Source: Bacteriovorax sp. MedPE-SWde
GTDB lineage: Bacteria > Bdellovibrionota > Bacteriovoracia > Bacteriovoracales > Bacteriovoracaceae
Direction: 5' to 3'
NCBI GenBank assembly: GCA_001874305.1
Contig: MPCU01000002.1
Coordinates: 1-64,000 of the forward strand
DNA: 64,000 nt
A model generated the notes under the pieces. That model was not told where the DNA came from, made no database searches, and saw only the letters and a list, made by a program, of their open reading frames with translations. A program made the position numbers and the translations under genes. Shown piece by piece: positions 37,229-50,251 of the stretch (position 1 is its first letter; every line of letters starts with the position of its first letter).

Positions 37229-38566
37229 CTAATTTAAACCGTAGTCAGCTATCTTTTTAAGGTGGCAATTTATAGTGAGAAGAGCATACTTATGCAGCCT
37301 GGCCGGTAACTCAGGATATATATCTAAAAGCATCTGTTCAGGGCCCATTCCTTGATTTTGTAGTTTATGAATTTGATCTTCACGAACAAGTCTATGCTTT
37401 AGAGTCTCTTCTAATTTATTAGTACCGCCAATCCCAATTCCATGTGAAGGAAAAATCGTACGAGGAGAAAGACTTATGACAGCCCTTAAAGAAGCGAAGT
37501 ATTTATTCATATCTCCTTCTTCATCACCGACAAGAACAGTACCAACAGTCTGAATTAAATCTGAGACAATCGCCCATGCTCCATCTGTACGCAATAGGCT
37601 TAGTTGCCCCTCATCATGACCAGGCGTTTCTAAAATCTTCACATTCTGTCCACATGAAGTGGTTAGTATTTCACCATCCTTAGCTAGCTTTACAGAAATA
37701 CCTTCAAAGTAGTCAATACCATACTTTTGTAAGATCCTTCCTTCCGTATCTGCACTCATCATCATTGGAATATTTAAGTCCTTAGCTAAAGACGTAGAAA
37801 ATTGATGGTGATCAGGGTGGTGGTGAGTCAAGAAGATTAAATCAACCTTAAATTGAGACAAACTGTACTTAAGTTTTTCATACTCTTCGAGACATTTTGG
37901 GGAAGGATCAATAACCACTTTAACGCTATCTTCATCACCGATATAAAAACAATTTGTTCTATTTGCTGGAGGAAATGTATTAGATAGAGGTAGGAACTGA
38001 TTAACTCCACCGAGAGGCCTAATCAAAGGTACCTCTGTAGAAGAATTATACTTTAAGTTAGGATCTATAGCTTCTTTGTTACCAATATTAGAAGCAAGGT
38101 CATCTAAAATTGAAATCATTGGAGGTACAACAAGCATTTCTCCAGACTTATATAGCTCTAATGCATTCTTAGCATTAATCCAGAATGCTTTTTGTGCTTC
38201 TCCCTCATCAACAATCAAATCTACTTTAGATTTCAAGAATATTTTAAAGTAGTGATTCTTAAACCTATGAGGATTAAAGTCAGGGGTAATAGCTGTGCCA
38301 CACCGACTTATGCCTAAGAGTTCTCCCGATTTATATAGTTCAACTATATCTATACCAAGCTCTTCTTCTACTTCTCTTCTTAGCGAAACTAAGAGATAGT
38401 TTTCAACTCCTTCAACTTCTAAATCAATGGCGTGCTCATGATCTGCCTTATCAACTTTCCCTCCAGGAAATGAGTAATAACCAGGAAAGGCCTTGAGATA
38501 ATTTTGTCTCTGAATAACAAAGAATTCATCACCAGAAATTAGGATTGAAGAAACAGATTCTCTCAT
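37229..38566 (-). CDS. Nudix hydrolase fused to a metallo-beta-lactamase-fold hydrolase
   Basis: 445 residues. The N-terminal 150 or so are a Nudix domain: GGKVDK at 35-40 begins the Nudix box, with REVEEELGI at 64-72, but a longer insertion than usual separates the Gly and Arg-Glu elements. The rest is a metallo-beta-lactamase fold with the metal motif THHHPDHH (about 247-254), a TPGHDEGQLSL region and a final PSHGIGIGG. The two parts are joined by a Pro/Asn-rich linker near 170-185. It abuts the oxidoreductase gene with no gap, so co-expression is likely. Such enzymes often act on nucleotides or thioesters; the substrate is unknown. A house-cleaning role for CoA or thioester products beside the 2-ketoacid oxidoreductase is a guess. 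Confidence 0.88.
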   Translation of the reverse strand: MRESVSSILISGDEFFVIQRQNYLKAFPGYYSFPGGKVDKADHEHAIDLEVEGVENYLLVSLRREVEEELGIDIVELYKSGELLGISRCGTAITPDFNPHRFKNHYFKIFLKSKVDLIVDEGEAQKAFWINAKNALELYKSGEMLVVPPMISILDDLASNIGNKEAIDPNLKYNSSTEVPLIRPLGGVNQFLPLSNTFPPANRTNCFYIGDEDSVKVVIDPSPKCLEEYEKLKYSLSQFKVDLIFLTHHHPDHHQFSTSLAKDLNIPMMMSADTEGRILQKYGIDYFEGISVKLAKDGEILTTSCGQNVKILETPGHDEGQLSLLRTDGAWAIVSDLIQTVGTVLVGDEEGDMNKYFASLRAVISLSPRTIFPSHGIGIGGTNKLEETLKHRLVREDQIHKLQNQGMGPEQMLLDIYPELPARLHKYALLTINCHLKKIADYGLN

Positions 38567-41500
38567 TTATAGATTAACTCCAAGTTTTTCAAAGGCACTT
38601 TTAGCGTTCGTATAACGAACTTCTCGATACCCTTTAATATTTTCAAGAAGCTTTAAATCCCTTCTCTTATCATTAGAATTTTGCGCTTCATTCATTATGA
38701 AATTTCTTATAGTCTCCCCTATCAGGCGTTCTTTACTATGCCACTTTGGCAATAAGACTCTAAGAAATCTCGCATGCCTCATTGTTTTAAGCATCCAATT
38801 TTTAGGAGAAAGATCAAATTCAACCTTCTTATTAAATATATCAAAAGCTGGTCTATTAATTCGAACTTTCTTAAAACTTGTACCTAAATTTCCATAGAGT
38901 TTATTATCCATATTTTGAAGTATAGGTGAAACCATCAGATGAGAGACTAAAACTTCATCTTTAACGATATAAGTCTTCGCAATAGTTCGAATAGCGATCT
39001 CAAGTTCCTCACCTTTAAATATGTTCTTTAAAGCTTCAAGGTCATTAACAAAACGTGCTGAGTTCTTACCTCGATTATAAATAAATTGATCATGTAACAT
39101 TTGAATTAGATGCTCCTGATCAAATGAATCAGCAGATTTTTTTGCACTTTCTAAGAGAGAGTTAAATGACGAAAGAATACTCTTCTTACTCTCCCAAGGA
39201 AGAAGAGAATCAATCAAGCTACGCTGTGCTAAAGCTTGATAACCTTCAGCGCTCTCTTTAATTTCGTACTTAGATTCAAATTTCTCTACACCGAGCAGAC
39301 ACATTTCACGGCCAAGATTGAATGCAATTAGGTTTTGAGAAACTTCATTCTTCTTTATCGCCTTATCCAGGGCCTTAGCAATATCTTCTTTTGAAAAAGG
39401 TACTAATCCAAGTTCAAAAGCATATCCTAAAATCATAGTAGAGGCATATACAGACTTACCAAGGAGTTTATCACACCACTTCTTTAGAGGAATCATCACA
39501 ATTCTATCGTCATGAGAATTCTTTATATTATTAATTAAGCTTTCCTTACTTAAACTCTTAGATTCAACTTCCTTATCAAGAAGTATTGTTAGAGGTACCT
39601 GAAAGTCGCAATCAAAAATTGCAACACCATCATTTGCTAAGAAACCTAACTGACCTGTTCCATCAAGAAGATCTGGCGATAATAGTACATCAGCAGTCGC
39701 TCGAGGAGTTACGGCCCCCATAGACCTAGTTGCTTTGCAAACGGACAGGTGACCTGTCACATTTCCATTTCTCTGGGCAAGCCCCTTTTGATCCATAAAC
39801 TTAAAGTCAAGATCGTCACGGCCACCCATCTCTACAGCGGCCTTAGATATAATTTTAGAAATGGTTGTTATACCTGAACCACCGACTCCTGTTACAACCA
39901 TTCTCCAAGTCTTATCAGAAGCAATGGCATCAAAGTCTTTCTTCGGTTTAACATCTTCTAAATGATCAAAATTGAAAGTAATTCCCAAGTCCGACTTATA
40001 TTTTGAGGGATGATAATTAACAACCTTAACCATTTCAAAACTTGGACAGGCCTTAAGTTTAGTGCAGTAGCTATCAGCTACACATATCTGAGGATCAATT
40101 GTTACCTTTGGTCCATAAGCATCAAAAGTCTGTGTCAGACCTGGACAACCAGTATTATCAACACATACACGACAGTCTTCACATGCTAGTGTATTTATCT
40201 GGTAAAAATTCTTTTCTGGAACTACTCCAGATTCTTTAATTACTTTTCTTTCAGTGGCCCTTTCGCGACCATGAAAAGTTAGAGAACATTCCTTATTAGA
40301 GATGATTACCTTAGTCCCCTTTCTCTTTACAAAATCCCTCATAAGGTTTTGATAGAAGAAACGATCACTAGGATTAACTTCAGTTATATCCGTAACTCCC
40401 AATCCTTTAACGACAGAAGCAATATTTTGTCTAGGCCTAGATGTACCTTCGACATTAACACCTGATGCTGCAGTCATTTGATGACCAGTCATAGCGGTAT
40501 TATCATTATCTAGGAGAATATATGTAATATCGTGATCCATTTGAACAGAGTTTGAAATATCTGTTACACCAGAATGGAAGAATGTCGAATCCCCCATAAG
40601 AACAACACTTGGGTTTTCAGTAAAAAGGTCAACTCCAGCACCTAAAGCACCACCTTGTCCCATTGCAGATAGATTATGCATCTCCTTAAAAGGAGGAAGA
40701 AAAGACAGTGAGTAACAGCCTACATCTCCATGAGTGATAAGTTCTATCCCTTGAGACTTCAGCCATGCTCTTAAGTCTTTAAGTAGACTTAAAGTCTCTC
40801 TATGTGGACACCCTGGACAAAATGTAGGGAGTCTTCTTGGGAGTACTCCATCATAACCTTTTTCTTCAAACTTTAACTCTTCACAAGCATGAAAGCCCCA
40901 GTCTCTAAGAAGGATTTCCATCTTATCTCGAATTATTTCATAACTTAATCCACCATAGGCAGGAAAACCTTCACTAGCAGACTCAGAATCTTTTAGGACA
41001 AACTCTTTCCCTTGAACTTCTATTTCAATTCCATGTTTTTGACATAATTCTTTTACCTCAGTTTCGAGAAAACCACGTTTCTCTTCGATAACAACTAGTT
41101 TCTTTAAACCTTTTAAGTATGGAACTAATAAGTCATCAACAAGAGGAAATGATGAGGCCACTTTATATAGAGAAAAGTGTTCAAGATATTGTGCTTCTTC
41201 AAAGATCTGTTTTACAGATTCAAAAATAACACCTGAAGAGATGAAGCCTATTTCGCTATCAAGCTTTCCAAAAGTCTTATCAAGTGCCATCTCTTTAAGA
41301 ACTTTTTTAACCTGAGGAAAACGTTCTTTAATCATTGTAATATCAGCGAGTAGAGAGTTTGGCGGAACCATAACATTCTTACTAAGATCAAACTTTGAAG
41401 GATCAAGAGTTACGAGGTCCCCATCAACTTTAGCTTCATCATATACTTCTACTCGTCCACCACCTTCGGCCATAAACGTAGTTAAGAGAAGACCTTGATA

Positions 41501-42016
41501 AAGACTAGTTCTCTTAGAAATATATAATGCCTTTTTCATCCAGTCCTTTAACTCCTGTGGAGTTGACGGTTCAAGAAAAGACATATGAAGATGTTTATAT
41601 AAATAGCGTGAATCTGCTGCAGTAGAAGTTGACATCGACCAAGGATCATCACCAACAGTTACAACAGTTCCAGGATATAGAGTTTCACCTGTTAACTCGT
41701 CAGTATACGGCACACCAGGATTAGCAAAGTTACCAACAGACAGAGCATCACTAGCAACATGAAGACCCATAGACTTCATTGCCACAAGACAATCTCTTCC
41801 TGCTTGTTTAGACCCAGAGGCCATAGCTGCAGCATTTGCTTCAGAGTTAGCTATTACTACTCTGATGCCTTTAGATTTAAATTCTTCTTTTCTCGCATAG
41901 AGAATATTGAAGAATTCCGCCAGGGGTGAACCTGGATAACCTGTATATAATGAGAAACCTGCTTCAAGGCCTCCCTGGATAATAATTTCATTACCATTTA
42001 ATATTTGATGACTCAT
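38567..42016 (-). CDS. Fused indolepyruvate:ferredoxin oxidoreductase (2-ketoacid oxidoreductase)
   Basis: 1149 residues, the usual size of the one-chain indolepyruvate ferredoxin oxidoreductase family. Order: N-terminal pyrimidine-binding part (GYPGSPLAEF near 29-38), a thiamine-diphosphate part (CPGCPHRETLS near 400, GDVGCYSLSFLPPF, MGDSTFFHSGVTD), a 4Fe-4S-type cluster region with Cys motifs around 620-665 (CEDCRVCVDNTGC, then CVADSYC, KACPS), a gamma-type domain beginning TGVGGSGITTISK (about 706), and a C-terminal domain. It oxidatively decarboxylates aryl 2-ketoacids (indolepyruvate, phenylpyruvate or hydroxyphenylpyruvate) with CoA and reduces ferredoxin. Divergent from hpd, it fits aromatic amino acid catabolism and could supply phenylacetyl-CoA. 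Substrate preference is inferred. Confidence 0.93.
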   Translation of the reverse strand: MSHQILNGNEIIIQGGLEAGFSLYTGYPGSPLAEFFNILYARKEEFKSKGIRVVIANSEANAAAMASGSKQAGRDCLVAMKSMGLHVASDALSVGNFANPGVPYTDELTGETLYPGTVVTVGDDPWSMSTSTAADSRYLYKHLHMSFLEPSTPQELKDWMKKALYISKRTSLYQGLLLTTFMAEGGGRVEVYDEAKVDGDLVTLDPSKFDLSKNVMVPPNSLLADITMIKERFPQVKKVLKEMALDKTFGKLDSEIGFISSGVIFESVKQIFEEAQYLEHFSLYKVASSFPLVDDLLVPYLKGLKKLVVIEEKRGFLETEVKELCQKHGIEIEVQGKEFVLKDSESASEGFPAYGGLSYEIIRDKMEILLRDWGFHACEELKFEEKGYDGVLPRRLPTFCPGCPHRETLSLLKDLRAWLKSQGIELITHGDVGCYSLSFLPPFKEMHNLSAMGQGGALGAGVDLFTENPSVVLMGDSTFFHSGVTDISNSVQMDHDITYILLDNDNTAMTGHQMTAASGVNVEGTSRPRQNIASVVKGLGVTDITEVNPSDRFFYQNLMRDFVKRKGTKVIISNKECSLTFHGRERATERKVIKESGVVPEKNFYQINTLACEDCRVCVDNTGCPGLTQTFDAYGPKVTIDPQICVADSYCTKLKACPSFEMVKVVNYHPSKYKSDLGITFNFDHLEDVKPKKDFDAIASDKTWRMVVTGVGGSGITTISKIISKAAVEMGGRDDLDFKFMDQKGLAQRNGNVTGHLSVCKATRSMGAVTPRATADVLLSPDLLDGTGQLGFLANDGVAIFDCDFQVPLTILLDKEVESKSLSKESLINNIKNSHDDRIVMIPLKKWCDKLLGKSVYASTMILGYAFELGLVPFSKEDIAKALDKAIKKNEVSQNLIAFNLGREMCLLGVEKFESKYEIKESAEGYQALAQRSLIDSLLPWESKKSILSSFNSLLESAKKSADSFDQEHLIQMLHDQFIYNRGKNSARFVNDLEALKNIFKGEELEIAIRTIAKTYIVKDEVLVSHLMVSPILQNMDNKLYGNLGTSFKKVRINRPAFDIFNKKVEFDLSPKNWMLKTMRHARFLRVLLPKWHSKERLIGETIRNFIMNEAQNSNDKRRDLKLLENIKGYREVRYTNAKSAFEKLGVNL

Positions 42017-42170: not shown

Positions 42171-43253
42171 ATGAGATCAAAAATTGGTGAAGATAACCCT
42201 CTAGGGATACTAGGCATCGACCATCTTGAGTTTACATGTACAGACTTGAATACTCCAACTAAAGACTTATTTTACAAGTTTGGATTTGAAAAGACAGCTG
42301 AGCACAAGACACTTAATACTGAGTTATTTACACAGGGTCAGGTAAGATTTCTTCTAATTGCATCAAAAGACGAAAATTCTCAGCCTGCGCAATACGTCAA
42401 AAATCATGGAGAGGGAGTATCAAAGCTATCATTTATGGTTGAAGATTGTGAACATGCAATCAAAACAGCTATTGAGCGAGGTGGTGAGTTAGTTCAAGAA
42501 CTAAAGCATGAAGAAACAGAGCATGGTGTTTATAAAACTGCTATGATCAAAGGTTTTGGAGATGTTGTTAACGAGTTTGTTGAAAGACCAAGAACATTTT
42601 TTAGGCCTGGTTATACAGCTCTTGAATCTGACGATAAAGCACAACCACTAAGTGCTAGAGTTGCTAGAATTGATCACTTAACAAATAATGTTCCAAAAGG
42701 TGAAATGAGAAAGTGGGTAGATTTCTACCAAAAAGTATATGGATTTAAAGTTACAAGATACTTCGACATTAAGGGTGCTAAAACAGGTCTTCTTTCAGAG
42801 GTTGTTCAACTTCCTTTAGGAGAAGTTATCATCCCTATTAATGAACCAGAAGTTGATAATGGGAAATCTCAAATTCAAGAGTTCTTAGACCTACACAATG
42901 GCGCAGGTGTTCAGCATATTGCTCTAACTTGTGGAGATATTTTGACAACAGTTGGAGAGCTTCGTGAAAGAGGAATCAAGTTTCTTGATATCCCACACAC
43001 TTATTATGAAGATATCCCTAAAAGAGACTTTACTGTTGAAGAAAATATTCAAGATCTTGAAGACAAACAACTTCTAGTAGATGGAGATCCTGAAGGGTAC
43101 CTCATTCAAAACTTTACTGAGACATATGTTGGACCATTATTTTTTGAATTTATTCAAAGAAAGAAGCATAACGGTTTCGGTGAAGGAAACTTTCAAGCTC
43201 TATTTGATGCCATTGAGAGAGATCAAGTTAAACGTGGTTACTTAAAAGAATAA
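42171..43253 (+). CDS. hpd: 4-Hydroxyphenylpyruvate dioxygenase
   Basis: Converts 4-hydroxyphenylpyruvate to homogentisate, the committed step of tyrosine catabolism. 360 residues, two VOC-type halves. The iron ligands are visible: His169 (RIDHL), His249 (GAGVQHIAL) and Glu326 (FFEFIQR). GGGG lies shortly before the ATG. It is divergent from the oxidoreductase gene, so the shared 154-bp region may coordinate both. The later genes of the homogentisate route (hmgA, maiA, fahA) are not in the window. A strong terminator follows. Confidence 0.97.
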   Translation: MRSKIGEDNPLGILGIDHLEFTCTDLNTPTKDLFYKFGFEKTAEHKTLNTELFTQGQVRFLLIASKDENSQPAQYVKNHGEGVSKLSFMVEDCEHAIKTAIERGGELVQELKHEETEHGVYKTAMIKGFGDVVNEFVERPRTFFRPGYTALESDDKAQPLSARVARIDHLTNNVPKGEMRKWVDFYQKVYGFKVTRYFDIKGAKTGLLSEVVQLPLGEVIIPINEPEVDNGKSQIQEFLDLHNGAGVQHIALTCGDILTTVGELRERGIKFLDIPHTYYEDIPKRDFTVEENIQDLEDKQLLVDGDPEGYLIQNFTETYVGPLFFEFIQRKKHNGFGEGNFQALFDAIERDQVKRGYLKE

Positions 43254-43258
43254 ATACC

Positions 43259-43290
43259 AAAGGCCTCAATATAGTTGAGGCCTTTTATTT
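43259..43290. terminator. Bidirectional intrinsic terminator between hpd and the subtilase gene
   Basis: Perfect 11-bp stem (43259-43269 with 43275-43285), 5-nt loop, followed by a T-rich run on the plus strand and A-rich/T-rich sequence for the minus strand. It closes both convergent genes. Confidence 0.9.
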
Positions 43291-44837
43291 TATATACTCT
43301 CTAAAATATTACGAGAGTTCTCAAAGCTAATAACCCCAAACTCAGAATCAATAACATCTAATTTAGTTGCACCCAGCTCCATTGCATCCTTTATTTCTAA
43401 TGCTGACTTATTTGGAAACAACTCTTTTAACTTAGCTGCAATATTTAAGGCCATAGGTGATGCCATAGATGTTCCAGTATAACGAATTTTCATATCACCT
43501 AAAAGAGCGCCCTCAACTTTAGTTCCAGGGGCAAAGAGATCAACATAGCGCTTTCCATAGTTTGAATATTTCGCCATTTTATAAATATTGTCATTTCTCC
43601 AATCACTATCTTCTGTAGCTCCAATAGTTACGACATTATCGAATGAGTAACAAGCTGGATAAAGACAATTAAATCGAGTTCCATCAAAGAGTTTTCCATC
43701 ATTTCCAGCAGCAACAAAGAACACCGTATCAGGATTATTCATAATCAAAGACCTTAAATTATCAAGAGTAGATCTTGGAAGATCTCCTGTCGCATAGTGA
43801 GGAAATGAAAAACTCATATTTACGAAATCTATTGATTCGCTTTTTATTTTCTGACTAATAAGTTTTAAATATTTTGCATCACCATAATCACCAGCAAATG
43901 GAATTAGGGAAGTACTTTCTAAGTCTCTCAACGCCAAAGAAGCAACGTGTGTCCCATGAGAATCTATTTTCCCTGGACGATTTAGAGAAATCGTTTCAAA
44001 AGGAATCCCGTATGTTTTGGCGATAATATTTGATGGTCTCCCCCAGTCTCCACTGTCAAAATAACTAGCAAAGTGAGAAAAACTTAAATCACCATTTTCA
44101 TCATAGAAAGACCCAAGATAATTATCAACAAGCCCATCGCCATCATTATCAACACCGTCAATAGGATCATCATAGTTGATTGAAATATGATCTATTAAGT
44201 CTTCGTGTTGATGGTCAAAACCAGAATCAATAATTGCAATCTTTACTTTCTCATTACCTGTTGAAGTAGGAAGTGATTCTATAGAGTTTTGAGAATAATC
44301 CCCAATTTTTTTACCATTAAGGTCTATGGCCTCAAAGCCTATAATTCGTTCTCCATCATAGTTAAAAATATAACTAAATTCATGCTTATCATTTTCAATT
44401 ATTTTTCGTTTTACAGTGATTCCATTTTCAATGACATCGATACTCTCAAGTGCACCTGTCCTATGATGAAAACCATACTCTTCTAATACAACTTCAACAT
44501 TAGAAATATCTTGTACTCTCTTCTTAGAGCGTGGCTTATTAAAGTCACCCATATAGTAAGTCACAAGCCTAGTTCCATCAGAAAGATGTTCAAAAGTACT
44601 TCTCGTTACTTCATTTCCTGATGAGGAAAAGTTTCTCTCTTTAATAATTTTCCCATCTTTATAATAAGAGATTGAAGAGACTTCTCCTTTATCAAAGAAC
44701 TTAGTGACGACTTTTCCATTCTCAGTTTTACAGATTTCGTGTTTAGTATTCTCAATGACTTCAACGCTGCAATCCTGTGATACAGCTAATACCTGAGCTG
44801 AAAAAGCTAACGACAATAGTAGTAATTTATAAGACAT
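43290..44837 (-). CDS. Exported subtilisin-like serine protease (S8 family)
   Basis: 515 residues from the ATG at 44837, chosen because GGAGG lies 5 nt before it and it gives a clean signal peptide (ending Val-Leu-Ala near 18); a longer frame starts at 44921. Residues 40-160 contain MORN/YwqK-like strand pairs (DKGEVSSISYYKDGKII type). The catalytic triad is Asp204 (AIIDSGFD), His294 (DSHGTHVAS) and Ser457 (GTSMASP), with oxyanion Asn379 (AAGND). A calcium-loop-like Asp-rich segment, DNDGDGLVDN, lies at 230-239. Secreted or periplasmic endoprotease, substrate unknown. Confidence 0.94.
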   Translation of the reverse strand: MSYKLLLLSLAFSAQVLAVSQDCSVEVIENTKHEICKTENGKVVTKFFDKGEVSSISYYKDGKIIKERNFSSSGNEVTRSTFEHLSDGTRLVTYYMGDFNKPRSKKRVQDISNVEVVLEEYGFHHRTGALESIDVIENGITVKRKIIENDKHEFSYIFNYDGERIIGFEAIDLNGKKIGDYSQNSIESLPTSTGNEKVKIAIIDSGFDHQHEDLIDHISINYDDPIDGVDNDGDGLVDNYLGSFYDENGDLSFSHFASYFDSGDWGRPSNIIAKTYGIPFETISLNRPGKIDSHGTHVASLALRDLESTSLIPFAGDYGDAKYLKLISQKIKSESIDFVNMSFSFPHYATGDLPRSTLDNLRSLIMNNPDTVFFVAAGNDGKLFDGTRFNCLYPACYSFDNVVTIGATEDSDWRNDNIYKMAKYSNYGKRYVDLFAPGTKVEGALLGDMKIRYTGTSMASPMALNIAAKLKELFPNKSALEIKDAMELGATKLDVIDSEFGVISFENSRNILESI

Positions 44838-45053
44838 TAATCCTCCGAATGAGGTCGTAATATATAAGAAAACCGTCACAACGCATAGCAACATGTAAAA
44901 ATACCCAACATAATTCGTCATTAAGTAGAATAAATGTAATGGCCACTTCTAATTACAATAAGTTACATGGAGGGTTTGACACTAACGGTCTATCCAAGAA
45001 GTGTCTATCTTCCTAAAATGACATGTTAAATTAGTTATTATAGGGCCAAAGAA

Positions 45054-45833
45054 ATGGAAAATATCATTGTTGAATACCCATACATGGACAACGAACATGT
45101 AGCGCTTGTGAGATTAAACAGACCAAAGGTTCTAAACGCCTTATCTACAGATCTGATAAAAGAGCTCGTTCAAGCTTTATTCGAATTAGAAGATAACCCA
45201 AAAGTGAGATCTATTATCCTTACGGGAAACGATAAGGCCTTTGCAGCTGGTGCTGATATAGCCCAAATGGTTGAAGCATCACCTATTGATCAGTTAAATA
45301 ACGAGAGATATAGATACTGGCAACAGATTGGTCTAATCAGCAAGCCTATTATTGCTGCCGTTAATGGTTACGCACTTGGCGGAGGCTGTGAACTAGCAAT
45401 GATGTGTGATTTAATTGTTGCAGGAGATAGTGCTAAATTTGGTCAACCAGAGATTAAAATTGGTACAACACCTGGCGCTGGTGGAACACAGAGACTAACA
45501 AGAGCAATCGGTAAGAGTAAGGCCATGATGCTAACACTTACAGGAGAAATGATTTCAGCAAGACAAGCTGATGAGTGGGGCCTTGTTGCAAAGGTTGTGC
45601 CTGCAAAAACGTTATTACAAGAAACATATAATCTCGCCAATACAATAGCTCAAAGAGCACCTGTAGCGGTCAAGCTTTGTAAGCAATCAGTTAATAAAGC
45701 ATATGAAATGAGCCTTAACGACTCAATCGACTTTGAAAGAAGAAGTTATTACTTAACATTTGCATCTCAAGATCAAAAAGAAGGTATGAACGCCTTTTTA
45801 GAAAAGAGAAGTCCAGAGTACAAAGGAAACTAA
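45054..45833 (+). CDS. paaF: Enoyl-CoA hydratase, PaaF-like
   Basis: 259-residue crotonase with NRPKVLNALS near 21-30, KAFAAGADIAQM near 60-71, the oxyanion motif GYALGGGCELAMMCD near 106-120 and FGQPEIKIGTTPGAGGTQRL near 130-149, with the two catalytic Glu positions of true hydratases (about 113 and 133). In phenylacetate catabolism PaaF hydrates 2,3-dehydroadipyl-CoA to 3-hydroxyadipyl-CoA. It is first in the operon, 1 nt before paaG. The name depends on context; it could also be a general crotonase. The 5' region contains no promoter I can call with confidence. Confidence 0.88.
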   Translation: MENIIVEYPYMDNEHVALVRLNRPKVLNALSTDLIKELVQALFELEDNPKVRSIILTGNDKAFAAGADIAQMVEASPIDQLNNERYRYWQQIGLISKPIIAAVNGYALGGGCELAMMCDLIVAGDSAKFGQPEIKIGTTPGAGGTQRLTRAIGKSKAMMLTLTGEMISARQADEWGLVAKVVPAKTLLQETYNLANTIAQRAPVAVKLCKQSVNKAYEMSLNDSIDFERRSYYLTFASQDQKEGMNAFLEKRSPEYKGN

Positions 45834-45834
45834 A

Positions 45835-46632
45835 ATGACAAACTCTACAGAATATAAAGATATTATCATCTCAAAAGAAAACTTCACCGGTACTATAAAA
45901 ATCAACCGTCCCGAAGTATATGGTGCCCTTACTAGAGATGCTAAGCTAGAAATTATAAAAGCAATTCGCCAACTCAACAGAGACGAAGAAGTAGGATGCA
46001 TAATCCTCACTTCAGAAGGTAAAGCATTTTGTTCTGGTCAAGACTTAAACGACAGAACAGTTCAAGGTGGCGATAGTTCAGTAGACTTAGGAAATACTCT
46101 TGAAACGGAGTGGAATCCACTAGTTAATGCTATAAGAGAATCAAAGAAAATTGTCATCGGCGCACTAAATGGCGTATGTGCTGGAGCAGGTGTTTCCATA
46201 GCACTTGCATGTGACCTTATTGTTTCACATCCAAAAGTAAAATTTGTATCAGGTTTTTCTAAACTAGGACTATGCCCAGATGCTGGTTCTACTTTTACTT
46301 TTACAAAAGCACTTGGTGAAAAGAGAGCATTAGAGTTCTTTCTCTTTAATGAGCCTTTAAAACCAGAGCAGATGTTAGATGTCGGTCTTATCAACGCCGT
46401 TAGTGAAGAATATATGCAAGTAGCAAGTACTTGGGCCCAAAAAGTAAACTGTCTAGCTCCCCTATCTGTAGCTATGACAAAAGAGAATATCACAGTAGCA
46501 ACTGACTCAACTTCGACAGAAACAATGAATCGTGAAACTGCATCTCAAAGATTTCTTGGAAACTCGCAGGACTACCAAGAAGGACTAAGTGCATTTTTTG
46601 AAAAGAGACAACCAAAATTTTTAGGAAAATAA
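45835..46632 (+). CDS. paaG: Ring 1,2-epoxyphenylacetyl-CoA isomerase, PaaG-like
   Basis: 265-residue crotonase-fold protein. AFCSGQDLNDR, near 62-72, is the hallmark pattern of PaaG, and GVCAGAGVSIALACD near 111 forms the oxyanion hole. The region after FSKLGLCPDAGSTFTFTKAL and the C-terminal EKRQPKFLGK also match the family. PaaG isomerises the ring epoxide to the oxepin-CoA and later shifts a double bond. The ATG follows paaF by 1 nt; the gap to the paaA-like gene is 13 nt with an AAGGAG site. Confidence 0.9.
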   Translation: MTNSTEYKDIIISKENFTGTIKINRPEVYGALTRDAKLEIIKAIRQLNRDEEVGCIILTSEGKAFCSGQDLNDRTVQGGDSSVDLGNTLETEWNPLVNAIRESKKIVIGALNGVCAGAGVSIALACDLIVSHPKVKFVSGFSKLGLCPDAGSTFTFTKALGEKRALEFFLFNEPLKPEQMLDVGLINAVSEEYMQVASTWAQKVNCLAPLSVAMTKENITVATDSTSTETMNRETASQRFLGNSQDYQEGLSAFFEKRQPKFLGK

Positions 46633-46645
46633 TAAGGAGAATACT

Positions 46646-47455
46646 ATGGCAGTAAGAGAATACACTGAAGAAGAACTACAATTATTTGAAGAAATCAAAA
46701 ACGGTAGAACATTTGAAAAAGACGAAGAGCTTCCACCTCTATACAAGAAAGCACTAAAGAACCTTTTATGGATGCAACATGACTCTGAGTATTCAGGTTC
46801 ACTTGGATATGCTCCATGGATTGATAAAGCTCCAACAATGCAAGAAAAAGTTATTGTTGCTCAAATCGTAAAAGATGAGATGAGACATGCTTCAGTAATT
46901 TATAAGCTTTTAGAAGGTTTAGGAGAGAATGTTCTTGGACATATTGAAAAGTCTGACCTTGCATTTAAATCAGAAGAAGATGAAGCCAATATTGGATTCA
47001 AAAGATTAAAAGAAGATTACCGAGTAAATATCTTTTACTATGGAATCAACTACTGGGAAGACTTCATCCTATTTAACTTTCTTATGGATAGAGCTGCAGG
47101 ACACCAACTTGAAGATACTCTTGAATCAACTTATCTTCCATGGAAGAAAGGAATTGAAGGAATCTACAAAGAAGAAATCATGCATATGGCCCATGGTGAT
47201 AAATGGATCAAAATTCTTGCAAACGGTGACAAGAAAGAATTCCTTCAAGAAAGACTAAACCTATGGTGGCCAAGAGTTATGAATATCTTTGGTTCAACGA
47301 AGGGACGTTCAAATGATCTCTATGTGAATCTAGGTCTTAAAAAGAGAACTAATGCAGTAGTTAGAGATGTGTTCGTAAAAGAAATCCAAGAAATGTGTGA
47401 TGAGGCTGGTCTTATACTTCCTGAGTACAGAGAAGAAGATCAACCACAAAGATAA
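46646..47455 (+). CDS. paaA: PaaA-like phenylacetyl-CoA epoxidase catalytic subunit (diiron)
   Basis: 269 residues of the PaaA/PaaC ferritin-like diiron family, clearly closer to the catalytic PaaA than to PaaC. Residues 44-83 align with PaaA in the pattern HDSEYS ... KAPTM ... VKDEMRHAS, and LNLWWPRVMNIFG at about 205-217 matches the PaaA LWWP/MMFG region. Candidate iron ligands are Glu48, Glu78 with His81, Glu138 (WEDF) and Glu177 with His180 (KEEIMH). It would insert one oxygen atom into the aromatic ring of phenylacetyl-CoA. AAGGAG precedes the ATG. In known systems PaaA works with PaaB, C, D and E; none of those is encoded nearby, so either they are elsewhere or this version is simpler. 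Confidence 0.88.
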   Translation: MAVREYTEEELQLFEEIKNGRTFEKDEELPPLYKKALKNLLWMQHDSEYSGSLGYAPWIDKAPTMQEKVIVAQIVKDEMRHASVIYKLLEGLGENVLGHIEKSDLAFKSEEDEANIGFKRLKEDYRVNIFYYGINYWEDFILFNFLMDRAAGHQLEDTLESTYLPWKKGIEGIYKEEIMHMAHGDKWIKILANGDKKEFLQERLNLWWPRVMNIFGSTKGRSNDLYVNLGLKKRTNAVVRDVFVKEIQEMCDEAGLILPEYREEDQPQR

Positions 47456-47479
47456 AATAAATAAATTACCATATCGATA

Positions 47480-47505
47480 AAGGATGACCGTTTCTGGTCA
47501 TCCTT
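47480..47505 (+). other. Strong hairpin between the paaA-like and paaH-like genes
   Basis: A 10-bp perfect stem, AAGGATGACC with GGTCATCCTT, and a 6-nt loop, in the 72-nt gap inside the operon. There is no T run after it, so it is more likely an RNA processing or stability element than a terminator. Confidence 0.6.
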
Positions 47506-47527: not shown

Positions 47528-48394
47528 ATGGAAATTAAAAAAGTTCTAATTGTTGGTGCTGGAACAATGGGAAGAGGAATCGCTCAGTGGTTTGCACAAC
47601 AAGGAGTAAAGGTTGAACTAGTTGATGCTGTCTTTGAAGTTGCACTAGCTGCACAAGAACTTGCAAATGCCTCATGGGATAAATTACACGCTAAAGCAAA
47701 GTTTAATGAAAAGGAAATTGCTTCCTTTAAGAGTAATTTAACTCCAGTTGAAATTAGTGAACATTCAAATGATTGTGACCTTGTTATTGAGGCCATAATT
47801 GAGAATGTCGATATAAAGAGAGAGTTATTTCAAAAAATAGATATGAATATGAAGAAGGAATGTATCATTGCTTCTAACACTTCAAGCATTCCAATAACGA
47901 CATTAGCGAGAGAGCTTTCACAAGAGAGAAAGACAAAGACCATCGGCCTTCACTTTTTCAACCCTGCTCCAATTATGAAGCTTGTTGAAATTATTGAAAC
48001 GACGTGGACTGACAAGCAGCTAACAAAAGACTTATTTGATTGGTTTTCAAAGAGATCAAAAAAGCCTGCCGTTTGTAAGGACTCACCAGGATTCATCGTA
48101 AATAGAGTAGCAAGAAACTTCTATGGAGAATCTCTTCATATCCTTGAATCATATGATCAAGATAAAGTTGAAGAGATTGATAATGTTTTAAAGAACGTTG
48201 GTGGTTTTAGAATGGGACCTTTTACTCTTATGGACCTAATCGGAATTGATGTAAATTATGATGTGACTCAAAGTGTATGGAAATCATTTTATAACGATCC
48301 ACGTTTTAGACCACATCAAATTCAACGCGAAATGGTAGAGAGTGGAAGAACTGGTAAGAAAGTAAGTGAAGGGTTTTATAAATATGAAAACTAG
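47528..48394 (+). CDS. 3-Hydroxyacyl-CoA dehydrogenase, NAD-binding half of PaaH
   Basis: 288 residues. N-terminal Rossmann fold with GAGTMGRGIAQW (about 11-22), IEAIIEN near 88-94, IASNTSSIPI near 116-125, and HFFNPAPIMKLVEI near 142-155 with the catalytic His, then the first dehydrogenase C-terminal domain (KDSPGFIVNRVAR near 182-194, GPFTLMDLIGID near 235-246). It is a complete short 3-hydroxybutyryl-CoA-type dehydrogenase. In PaaH it oxidises 3-hydroxyadipyl-CoA with NAD+. PaaH proper is about 475 residues with a second C-terminal domain; here that part is encoded by the next gene. The stop overlaps that gene's start by 11 nt. Confidence 0.9.
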   Translation: MEIKKVLIVGAGTMGRGIAQWFAQQGVKVELVDAVFEVALAAQELANASWDKLHAKAKFNEKEIASFKSNLTPVEISEHSNDCDLVIEAIIENVDIKRELFQKIDMNMKKECIIASNTSSIPITTLARELSQERKTKTIGLHFFNPAPIMKLVEIIETTWTDKQLTKDLFDWFSKRSKKPAVCKDSPGFIVNRVARNFYGESLHILESYDQDKVEEIDNVLKNVGGFRMGPFTLMDLIGIDVNYDVTQSVWKSFYNDPRFRPHQIQREMVESGRTGKKVSEGFYKYEN

Positions 48395-49046
48395 ACTAAT
48401 TTTAACATCAAGTAATCACCCACTTGAAAAGAAGTTTAAAACAAAAGAATTTAAATCTATAGAGGTAGACCCAGTAGCTATATGGGAGCTTGATGGCTCA
48501 GACTTTGAAGATGTAGATATTGTCTATGACTTCACTTGTTTTGATAGAGCAACAAAACTGGATTTACTTGAAAAGATCTCTCACCTCCATGAAGGTGAGA
48601 TAATGACTGATCTTACAACAAATTGGGGAGACTATTTCATAGAACACTATCCTCAAATAACAGCGGCATTCGCAGCCGCCTTCTACTCTCCAAAGAATAC
48701 AATTGAAGTCTATTCAAAAGATGTAGAAGCCTATGAAGAAGTTACAGATTTCTTTAAATCAATAGGAATGGAAGTAGAAAATACAAATAGCGTTGGTATC
48801 TGTTTTACTTACCCAAGAGTCATATCAATGATTATAAATGAAGCATATTTTTCTAGTGAAGAAAAAATGGCAACGAATGAAGATATTGATACAGCAATGA
48901 AGTTCGGTGTTAATTATCCTCTTGGTCCATTTGAATGGGCACAGAAGATTGGGCACGACAAAGTAATACTAGTTCTCGATGAACTGTATCAAGTAACAGG
49001 AGATCCTCGCTATAGAGTGAGTAGATCTCTAAGAATGCAAATGTAG
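48384..49046 (+). CDS. C-terminal half of a split PaaH-like 3-hydroxyacyl-CoA dehydrogenase
   Basis: 220 residues from the ATG at 48384; a GTG at 48366 is an alternative. It lacks the NAD-binding Gly-rich loop. Residues 1-130 are a divergent domain with a Rossmann-like strand order, and the second half (CFTYPRVISMIINEAYFSS, NEDIDTAMKFGVNYPLGPFEWAQKIG, YQVTGDPRYRVS) matches the second C-terminal domain of long PaaH-type dehydrogenases. The start overlaps the preceding stop by 11 nt, giving two coupled chains. Probably a partner or substrate-binding subunit for the NAD-binding chain; this is inference. Confidence 0.85.
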   Translation: MKTRLILTSSNHPLEKKFKTKEFKSIEVDPVAIWELDGSDFEDVDIVYDFTCFDRATKLDLLEKISHLHEGEIMTDLTTNWGDYFIEHYPQITAAFAAAFYSPKNTIEVYSKDVEAYEEVTDFFKSIGMEVENTNSVGICFTYPRVISMIINEAYFSSEEKMATNEDIDTAMKFGVNYPLGPFEWAQKIGHDKVILVLDELYQVTGDPRYRVSRSLRMQM

Positions 49047-49054
49047 GAGATAAA

Positions 49055-50251
49055 ATGAAGTCAGTATATATAATACACGCAAAGAGAACACCAATAGGTC
49101 GCTTAGGTGGCAAACTAAGTCATGTCAGAGTCGATGATATGCTGGCCAACCTATTCAGAGAATTTAAGGACTCATTTGATTTTGATATGAAAGAGATTGA
49201 TGATGTTATTGCAGGTTGTGCTAACCAGGCCGGTGAAGACAATAGAAATCTTGCAAGAATGTCTTCACTATTAGCAGGTCTTCCATTCGAAGTCCCAGGA
49301 GTAACACTAAATAGACTATGCGCTTCTAGTTTAGATTCAATTGTCGATGGCTGGTCACGCATACAAGCAGGTGTTGCTGACTGTATTCTAGTTGGTGGTG
49401 CTGAAAGTATGACAAGAGCACCATTTGTTATGTCTAAGCCAAGTGCTGCATTTGGAAGAGATTCTAAAATGTACGATACAACATTTGGCTGGCGTTTTCC
49501 TAACCCAAAGATGAAAGAAATGTTTCCACTCTATGGTATGGGTGAGACAGCTGAAGAGGTAGCAGAAAAACTAAATATTAGCCGCGCAGATCAAGATCAA
49601 TTCGCACTTAATTCACATCTAAAGGCGATTAAGGCATGGGAGCAAGGCAAGTTTAACAACGAAGTAACTCCAGTGGATGTAAAACTAAGAAAGGAATCCT
49701 TTACTGTTTCAAAAGATGAAGGGCCGAGGGCAGATACGACTATTGAAAAGATGTCCAAACTTCGAACAGTATTCAGACAAGATGGAACTGTTACAGCAGG
49801 AAATGCCTCTTCTATGAATGACGGCGCTGCATGTGTAGCTATCGTCTCAGAAGAATTCCTCAAAAGACATAATTTAACTCCCCTAGTAGAAATAACAGGA
49901 GCTGGAGTTAGAGGAATACACCCAAATATTATGGGACTTGGCCCAGTAGAATCAACAAATACACTAATGAGAAAGTTTGGTAAGAAAATATCTGACTTTG
50001 ATGTTGTTGAGTTAAATGAAGCATTTGCTGCACAAAGTTTAGGATGCATTAGAGAGCTTGGTCTTAACGAAGAAATCGTTAACCTCAACGGTGGAGCAAT
50101 TTCTCTTGGACATCCTCTTGGTTGCTCAGGAGCAAGAATAGTAACAACTCTTACTCACATAATGGATCAAAACAAATCTCTAAAAGAAGGATTGGCCTCA
50201 ATGTGTATTGGAGTCGGTCAAGGTGTATCACTCTCAGTTAAGAACTGTTAG
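49055..50251 (+). CDS. paaJ: 3-Oxoadipyl-CoA/3-oxo-5,6-dehydrosuberyl-CoA thiolase, PaaJ-like
   Basis: 398-residue thiolase. GEDNRNLARMSSLLAGLP near 55-72 and NRLCASSLDS with nucleophile Cys89 are the PaaJ/PcaF pattern, followed by GGAESMTRAPFVM, DTTFGWRFPNP, the GMGETAEEVA loop, NEAFAAQSLGC, GGAISLGHPLGCSGAR (His catalytic) and MCIGVGQGVSL with the second catalytic Cys. It cleaves 3-oxoadipyl-CoA with CoA to acetyl-CoA and succinyl-CoA. It is the last gene of the operon, 8 nt after the PaaH C-terminal half, and a hairpin follows. Confidence 0.92.
   Translation: MKSVYIIHAKRTPIGRLGGKLSHVRVDDMLANLFREFKDSFDFDMKEIDDVIAGCANQAGEDNRNLARMSSLLAGLPFEVPGVTLNRLCASSLDSIVDGWSRIQAGVADCILVGGAESMTRAPFVMSKPSAAFGRDSKMYDTTFGWRFPNPKMKEMFPLYGMGETAEEVAEKLNISRADQDQFALNSHLKAIKAWEQGKFNNEVTPVDVKLRKESFTVSKDEGPRADTTIEKMSKLRTVFRQDGTVTAGNASSMNDGAACVAIVSEEFLKRHNLTPLVEITGAGVRGIHPNIMGLGPVESTNTLMRKFGKKISDFDVVELNEAFAAQSLGCIRELGLNEEIVNLNGGAISLGHPLGCSGARIVTTLTHIMDQNKSLKEGLASMCIGVGQGVSLSVKNC

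Follow-up and report, generated by a model that had tools for sequence, protein, structure and literature searches.

Gene content of the locus

The window, by which we mean the whole stretch of 64,000 nucleotides that was analysed, covers positions 1 to 64,000 of the forward strand of contig MPCU01000002.1 in the assembly GCA_001874305.1 of Bacteriovorax sp. MedPE-SWde (GTDB lineage Bacteria; Bdellovibrionota; Bacteriovoracia; Bacteriovoracales; Bacteriovoracaceae). The genome (G000) has a size of 3.76 Mb and is 99.7% complete. The locus contains an operon in the order paaF, paaG, a lone PaaA-like gene (the third), paaH1, paaH2 and paaJ, and it is described here together with genes that precede it in the window.

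37229..38566, minus strand: NUDIX-metallo-beta-lactamase fusion, after the oxidoreductase gene of the next line (NUDIX and Lactamase_B; synteny)
38567..42016, minus strand: fused indolepyruvate/arylpyruvate:ferredoxin oxidoreductase (IOR), divergent from the HPPD gene (IorA/IorB-type families; co-occurrence)
42171..43253, plus strand: 4-hydroxyphenylpyruvate dioxygenase, HPPD (TIGR01263, 372 bits, over the cut-off; synteny)
45054..45833, plus strand: paaF-like enoyl-CoA hydratase (44% identity to E. coli PaaF, with the two catalytic Glu residues)
45835..46632, plus strand: paaG-like epoxide isomerase (37% identity to E. coli PaaG over the full length)
46646..47455, plus strand: lone PaaA-like diiron protein, 269 aa (PF05138, ligand mapping, AF2 model)
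47528..48394, plus strand: paaH1, N-terminal part of a split PaaH-like 3-hydroxyacyl-CoA dehydrogenase (positions 5-286 of TIGR02279 PaaH; 3HCDH_N and 3HCDH)
48366..49046, plus strand: paaH2, C-terminal part of the split PaaH (positions 391-493 of TIGR02279; 29 nt overlap with paaH1)
49055..50251, plus strand: paaJ-like 3-oxoadipyl-CoA thiolase (50% identity to E. coli PaaJ; catalytic Cys/His/Cys)

The intergenic gaps from paaF to paaJ are 1, 13, 72, -29 and 8 nt. Against the curated family models the products score below the cut-offs: the PaaF-like protein reaches 305 bits with NCBIfam PaaF (cut-off 371), the PaaJ-like protein 505 bits with TIGR02430 pcaF (cut-off 597), and the PaaG-like protein has TIGR02280 PaaG as its top family, also under the cut-off. 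A sequence-only reading of this window had recognised PaaF-, PaaG-, PaaH- and PaaJ-like enzymes, in agreement with the profile matches and the E. coli comparisons, PaaH being encoded by two genes. It had also placed a ferredoxin oxidoreductase 4.6 kb away; this distance is correct for the start of the IOR gene, which lies on the opposite strand.

In many relatives HPPD is the first gene of the operon, located directly upstream, and in the own genome an S8 peptidase gene (43290-44921, minus strand) lies between HPPD and the operon. The NUDIX-metallo-beta-lactamase fusion downstream of IOR is conserved family-wide. In addition, a perfect short hairpin, GGATGACC-GTTTCT-GGTCATCC (window 47479-47505), lies in the 72 nt that separate the lone PaaA-like gene from paaH1 and is possibly a processing or attenuation site.

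The lone PaaA-like protein

The open reading frame at 46646-47455 is a genuine gene, as the earlier reading had assumed: it encodes 269 aa from an ATG start and is preceded by a Shine-Dalgarno sequence, AAGGAG, in the 13-nt gap after paaG. The only Pfam match of its product is PF05138 PaaA_PaaC (E 2e-33). Among the more specific models, PaaA scores highest (99.9 bits), followed by PaaC (62) and BoxB (22); note that the PaaA and BoxB values are far under the cut-offs of the curated models TIGR02156 (PaaA, 280 bits) and TIGR03225 (BoxB, 499 bits).

In E. coli PaaA, the iron ligands are Glu42, Glu72, His75, Asp126, Glu155 and His158 (PMC4498308). In the alignment with this protein they correspond, in that order, to Glu48, Glu78, His81, Asp148, Glu177 and His180. 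The sequence-only reading had thus chosen Glu48, Glu78/His81 and Glu177/His180 correctly, whereas its Glu138 has to be replaced by Asp148, the equivalent of PaaA Asp126, as the sixth ligand. PaaA Phe108, a residue that orients the substrate (PMC4498308), is Phe130 here, and it is conserved across the family orthologues along with all six ligands.

The Lys68-Glu49 "lysine bridge" of PaaA, which has been proposed to aid electron transfer from PaaE (PMC4498308), is replaced by Ile74 and Tyr55. The corresponding positions are Val/Gln in BoxB and Leu/Tyr in SSO1313, as read by eye from PDB-profile alignments. By alignment, the lone protein is also devoid of the C-terminal PaaA segment that partly covers the pocket. 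The AF2 model (pLDDT 88, pTM 0.86) is closest in fold to PaaA (Z 26) and SSO1313 (25.8), followed by PaaC and BoxB (Z 21.9). Since the ligands and Phe108 are present, the lysine bridge is gone and the fold matches, the protein appears to retain the diiron chemistry while having shed features tied to the PaaABCE complex. It may also be soluble and active by itself.

Partner genes in the own genome

Partner genes were searched for with profiles in the whole genome. No PaaB was found with PF06243, and no PaaE: the top PaaE score, 33.7 bits for a 413-aa reductase, compares with a cut-off of 420.8. There is no PaaC either, since PF05138 matches just two proteins in the whole genome, the lone one and a divergent paralogue encoded at a distance of 577 kb. 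Positive controls for the PaaA, PaaB, PaaC and PaaE searches were available among the relatives: G009 and G054, which carry the canonical paa epoxidase gene set, gave 144-149 bits for PaaB and 295-314 bits for PaaA and PaaC (295-297 for PaaC), and G009 gave 438 bits for PaaE. The earlier statement that PaaB, PaaC and PaaE partners are missing therefore stands, and paaBCE genes elsewhere in the genome, which would have contradicted it, are absent by the same searches. PaaK, for which that reading had suggested a search, was not found in the genome (top 31 bits against a cut-off of 646, in a search without a positive control). On the other hand, its doubt about paaZ is removed by a full-length gene on another contig (G000:C13:89727-91751; 919 bits, cut-off 563), in whose product the ALDH Glu/Cys and the hydratase Asp/His catalytic residues are conserved.

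Several other regions are relevant to the discussion below. The second PF05138 protein (G000:C8:624179-624934; L051 9689-10471) has Thr (Thr132) in place of the Asp126 ligand, and its gene adjoins one for a 741-aa protein that we read as a monomeric NADP-isocitrate dehydrogenase. In a relative (G011:C4; L052 8697-10530), a divergent second PF05138 protein, likewise with Thr for this ligand, is encoded directly after an HPPD paralogue. Contig C15 of the own genome (L128 7750-11629) carries a cluster of genes for a flavin-reductase-like protein, a short and divergent HmgA-like protein (66 bits), a FAH-like protein and a HisC-type aminotransferase; this cluster probably represents the tyrosine branch.

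Conservation among relatives

Orthologues of the lone protein occur in 24 genomes of the family at 62-89% identity, the nearest named record being that of Bacteriovorax sp. DB6_IX (89%), in line with a marine predator of Halobacteriovorax type as the source of the window. In about 58 of 60 further named loci paaG directly precedes the lone gene, and in nearly all of them paaH1 comes next. The arrangement is therefore not an assembly accident.

The absence of partners is likewise a family trait. PaaB is missing from every searched genome with the lone protein, PF06243 matches being confined to G009 and G054 in a search that covered all genomes except G058. The PF05138 search revealed no PaaC-type partner common to the genomes with the lone protein, and no PaaE exceeded the cut-off in the eight such genomes searched for it. 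Inspection of the 60 loci showed no reductase gene recurring next to the lone gene, nor any recurrent unassigned neighbour that could be a reductase. A flavin reductase gene adjoins the lone gene in a single locus (L083) and was rejected as a linked electron donor.

PaaZ versus EthD and aldehyde dehydrogenase

In some relatives the operon is longer by two genes. The one immediately ahead of paaF encodes an EthD-family protein of about 103 aa, and the one after paaJ encodes an aldehyde dehydrogenase (ALDH) of about 496 aa. Examples are found in L031 (11397-11711) and L032 (8001-8312 and 13460-14950). The two genes go together: among the loci with both flanks visible, 38 have both, 15 have neither and 5 have one only. 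Moreover, they alternate with PaaZ. A set of 23 genomes with the lone protein divides into 11 that have PaaZ (one of them partial) without EthD and 12 that have EthD without PaaZ, with no exception for EthD. The gene tree requires at least five switches between the two states, one of them inside the own genus. Its well-supported branches offer three independent pairs, each with PaaZ opposed to EthD, a number that does not suffice for a formal sign test (p 0.25). All EthD genomes carry the lone protein, save one in which the operon is cut off by a contig end.

The simplest reading is that EthD and ALDH substitute for the hydrolase and dehydrogenase halves of PaaZ, and we regard the two proteins as a candidate for a new oxepin-CoA hydrolase pair. 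Such a swap ties the cluster to oxepin-CoA chemistry and hence to ring epoxidation.

Role of the ferredoxin oxidoreductase

Of the 32 family genomes that show any part of the pathway, 31 have IOR, as against 0 of the 26 that show none. This co-occurrence indirectly supports the earlier suggestion that IOR belongs to the pathway. As no PaaK was found, the probable source of phenylacetyl-CoA is the conversion of phenylpyruvate by IOR, which may also supply reduced ferredoxin to the epoxidase. However, two relatives with a canonical set of paa epoxidase genes carry IOR as well, and PaaE was demonstrated in one of the two. Since electrons come from PaaE in such relatives, the making of phenylacetyl-CoA in place of PaaK is the more secure role of IOR.

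Proposed route

The best explanation, which we hold with slightly more belief than doubt, is that the lone PaaA-like protein is a stand-alone, BoxB-like diiron arylacetyl-CoA epoxidase in a phenylalanine-degradation route. The reduced, PaaBCE-free epoxidation module put forward by the sequence-only reading is thus retained as the best reading, now as a trait conserved in a bacterial family according to the 24 genomes, the synteny and the PaaB and PaaC searches. IOR would turn phenylpyruvate into phenylacetyl-CoA, as the failure to find PaaK suggests, and the lone protein would insert one of the two atoms of O2 into the ring, as its ligands, fold and gene context suggest. The PaaG-like enzyme would form oxepin-CoA, whose ring would be opened and oxidised by PaaZ, encoded elsewhere, or by EthD and aldehyde dehydrogenase in the relatives without PaaZ; the PaaF-, PaaH- and PaaJ-like enzymes would then complete beta-oxidation. 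The electron donor would be a reductase or ferredoxin whose gene lies away from the operon; the most economical candidate is ferredoxin that IOR has reduced.

That the lone gene is flanked immediately by paaG and paaH1 in almost every locus supports this scheme. Several points count against a stand-alone enzyme. E. coli PaaA is insoluble alone, that is, without PaaC, and all of PaaABCE are needed in vitro, where the product decreases more than 100-fold without PaaB (PMC4498308, PMC9493321). In addition, the operon has no linked gene for an electron donor, and the C-terminal pocket segment is absent.

Relatives without the protein and alternative explanations

Six genomes (G024, G037, G038, G049, G050 and G057) have IOR, paaG, paaH1/H2 and PaaZ, and mostly paaF and paaJ, with no PF05138 protein genome-wide. 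In these genomes paaG directly adjoins paaH1 (loci of relatives without a PF05138 protein are L154, L157 and L162-L166). Three of the six have 99-100% completeness and little contamination. On a tree of paaG, paaH1 and IOR, a quick tree with some weak branches, the six genomes are dispersed such that at least five changes are required; G057 even belongs to the same genus as G012, which has the lone protein. Either another oxygenase replaced the lone protein several times, or the lone protein is dispensable to the pathway or not the sole epoxidase, and for this reason we do not raise our confidence in the stand-alone epoxidase above the level given above. A Rieske oxygenase encoded near paaZ in G057 was considered as the replacement and rejected, since it also occurs in G012 and G013, both of which have the lone protein, and close homologues are absent from G038, G049 and G050.

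The same six relatives, with the repeated changes on the tree, are the main argument for a rather unlikely alternative, in which the lone protein is another oxygenase or hydroxylase of the cluster (acting, for example, on 4-hydroxyphenylacetyl-CoA or a homogentisate-type thioester) and the true epoxidase is some other enzyme common to all PaaZ or EthD genomes. HPPD as a conserved operon neighbour seems to point in this direction too, but as a sign of a homogentisate-handling operon it was rejected, because the HmgA-like and FAH-like genes on C15 account for it through the tyrosine branch. Conservation of the PaaA ligands and Phe108, the adjacency of paaG to the lone gene and the near-complete presence of the lone protein in EthD genomes also speak for the arylacetyl-CoA epoxidase. 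A hidden PaaC-like partner would remove the need for a stand-alone enzyme, and the second PF05138 paralogue at G000:C8:624 kb is of the same fold family (PF05138, 80 bits) and has lost the Asp126 ligand (Thr132), as a structural subunit might. Nevertheless, this is very improbable: the paralogue occurs in only 2 of the 23 genomes with the lone protein, it is PaaA-like rather than PaaC-like (79 versus 21 bits), it keeps the other five ligands, and its gene is unlinked. We therefore rejected it as a PaaC substitute.

A further alternative concerns the electron source only and is compatible with the stand-alone epoxidase: electrons may come from NAD(P)H via an ordinary unlinked reductase, flavin reductase or ferredoxin system, with IOR only making the CoA thioester. 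BoxB, for comparison, is served by BoxA as a separate reductase. We consider this version neither more nor less probable than its negation. The two relatives that combine IOR with canonical paa epoxidase genes, one of them with PaaE, argue for it, as does the flavin-reductase-like gene in the own HmgA/FAH cluster, whereas no reductase gene recurs beside the lone gene in the 60 loci and IOR does. The full combination, in which IOR gives a single-subunit arylacetyl-CoA epoxidase both its phenylacetyl-CoA and its ferredoxin electrons and in which half of the lineage uses EthD instead of the PaaZ hydrolase half to open the oxepin-CoA ring, is unlikely to hold in all its parts.

Implications

Aerobic ring opening via CoA thioesters and epoxides is thought to require the multi-subunit PaaABCE, whereas many members of this predatory family apparently manage the route with a single PF05138 protein, lacking both PaaC and PaaK. 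A 2026 survey of 6,536 genomes treated PaaA and PaaC as robust pathway markers, with PaaK also used as a genomic marker, and makes no mention of Bdellovibrio (PMC13186573). Surveys based on PaaA, PaaC and PaaK would miss the present route because these bacteria have neither PaaC nor PaaK. In the open-access literature we found no paper linking PaaA with Bdellovibrio, and none describing a lone PaaA epoxidase or this arrangement.

The occurrence of the lone protein in a phenylalanine-degradation cluster suggests a simpler, testable version of the ring-opening chemistry. If the protein works alone, it would offer a small and tractable model of ring epoxidation for testing what PaaB, PaaC and the lysine bridge contribute. 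In addition, a candidate for a new oxepin-CoA hydrolase emerges from the swap between PaaZ and EthD/ALDH. The six genomes that lack a recognised epoxidase point to a further oxygenase.

Comparison with known systems

The lone protein shares the PF05138 fold with PaaA, the catalytic subunit of E. coli PaaABCE (PDB 3PVR/3PW1; VIA Z 26, 26% identity). The two have in common the six iron ligands, Phe108, operon enzymes of the PaaF, PaaG, PaaH and PaaJ types, and PaaZ in the genome. Unlike the PaaABCE system, the present one is without PaaB, PaaC, PaaE and PaaK. The protein is also shorter than PaaA (269 versus 309 aa), having no C-terminal "door" segment, and has Tyr55/Ile74 in place of the lysine bridge.

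SSO1313, a PaaA-like protein of the archaeon Sulfolobus solfataricus (PDB 4MUD), resembles the lone protein in size class and fold (Z 25.8, rmsd 2.0; 23% identity). As in the lone protein, Tyr takes the place of PaaA Glu49 and a hydrophobic residue that of Lys68. To our knowledge, SSO1313 has no established function. Outside the family, three stand-alone PaaA-like proteins from Bacillota and Actinomycete MAGs (L125-L127) are 45-48% identical and have the same ligands, with the same Tyr/Ile replacements in the two that were aligned, but in contrast to the lone gene their genes lie outside any paa operon.

BoxB, the benzoyl-CoA 2,3-epoxidase component (PDB 3PM5), is a single-polypeptide diiron epoxidase component for aryl-CoA that is served by a separate reductase. 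Both BoxB and the lone protein have a hydrophobic residue at the position of PaaA Lys68 and a DR..G..QL-type motif around the Asp ligand. They differ in size, BoxB having about 470 aa and the lone protein 269 aa, and the substrate of BoxB is benzoyl-CoA.
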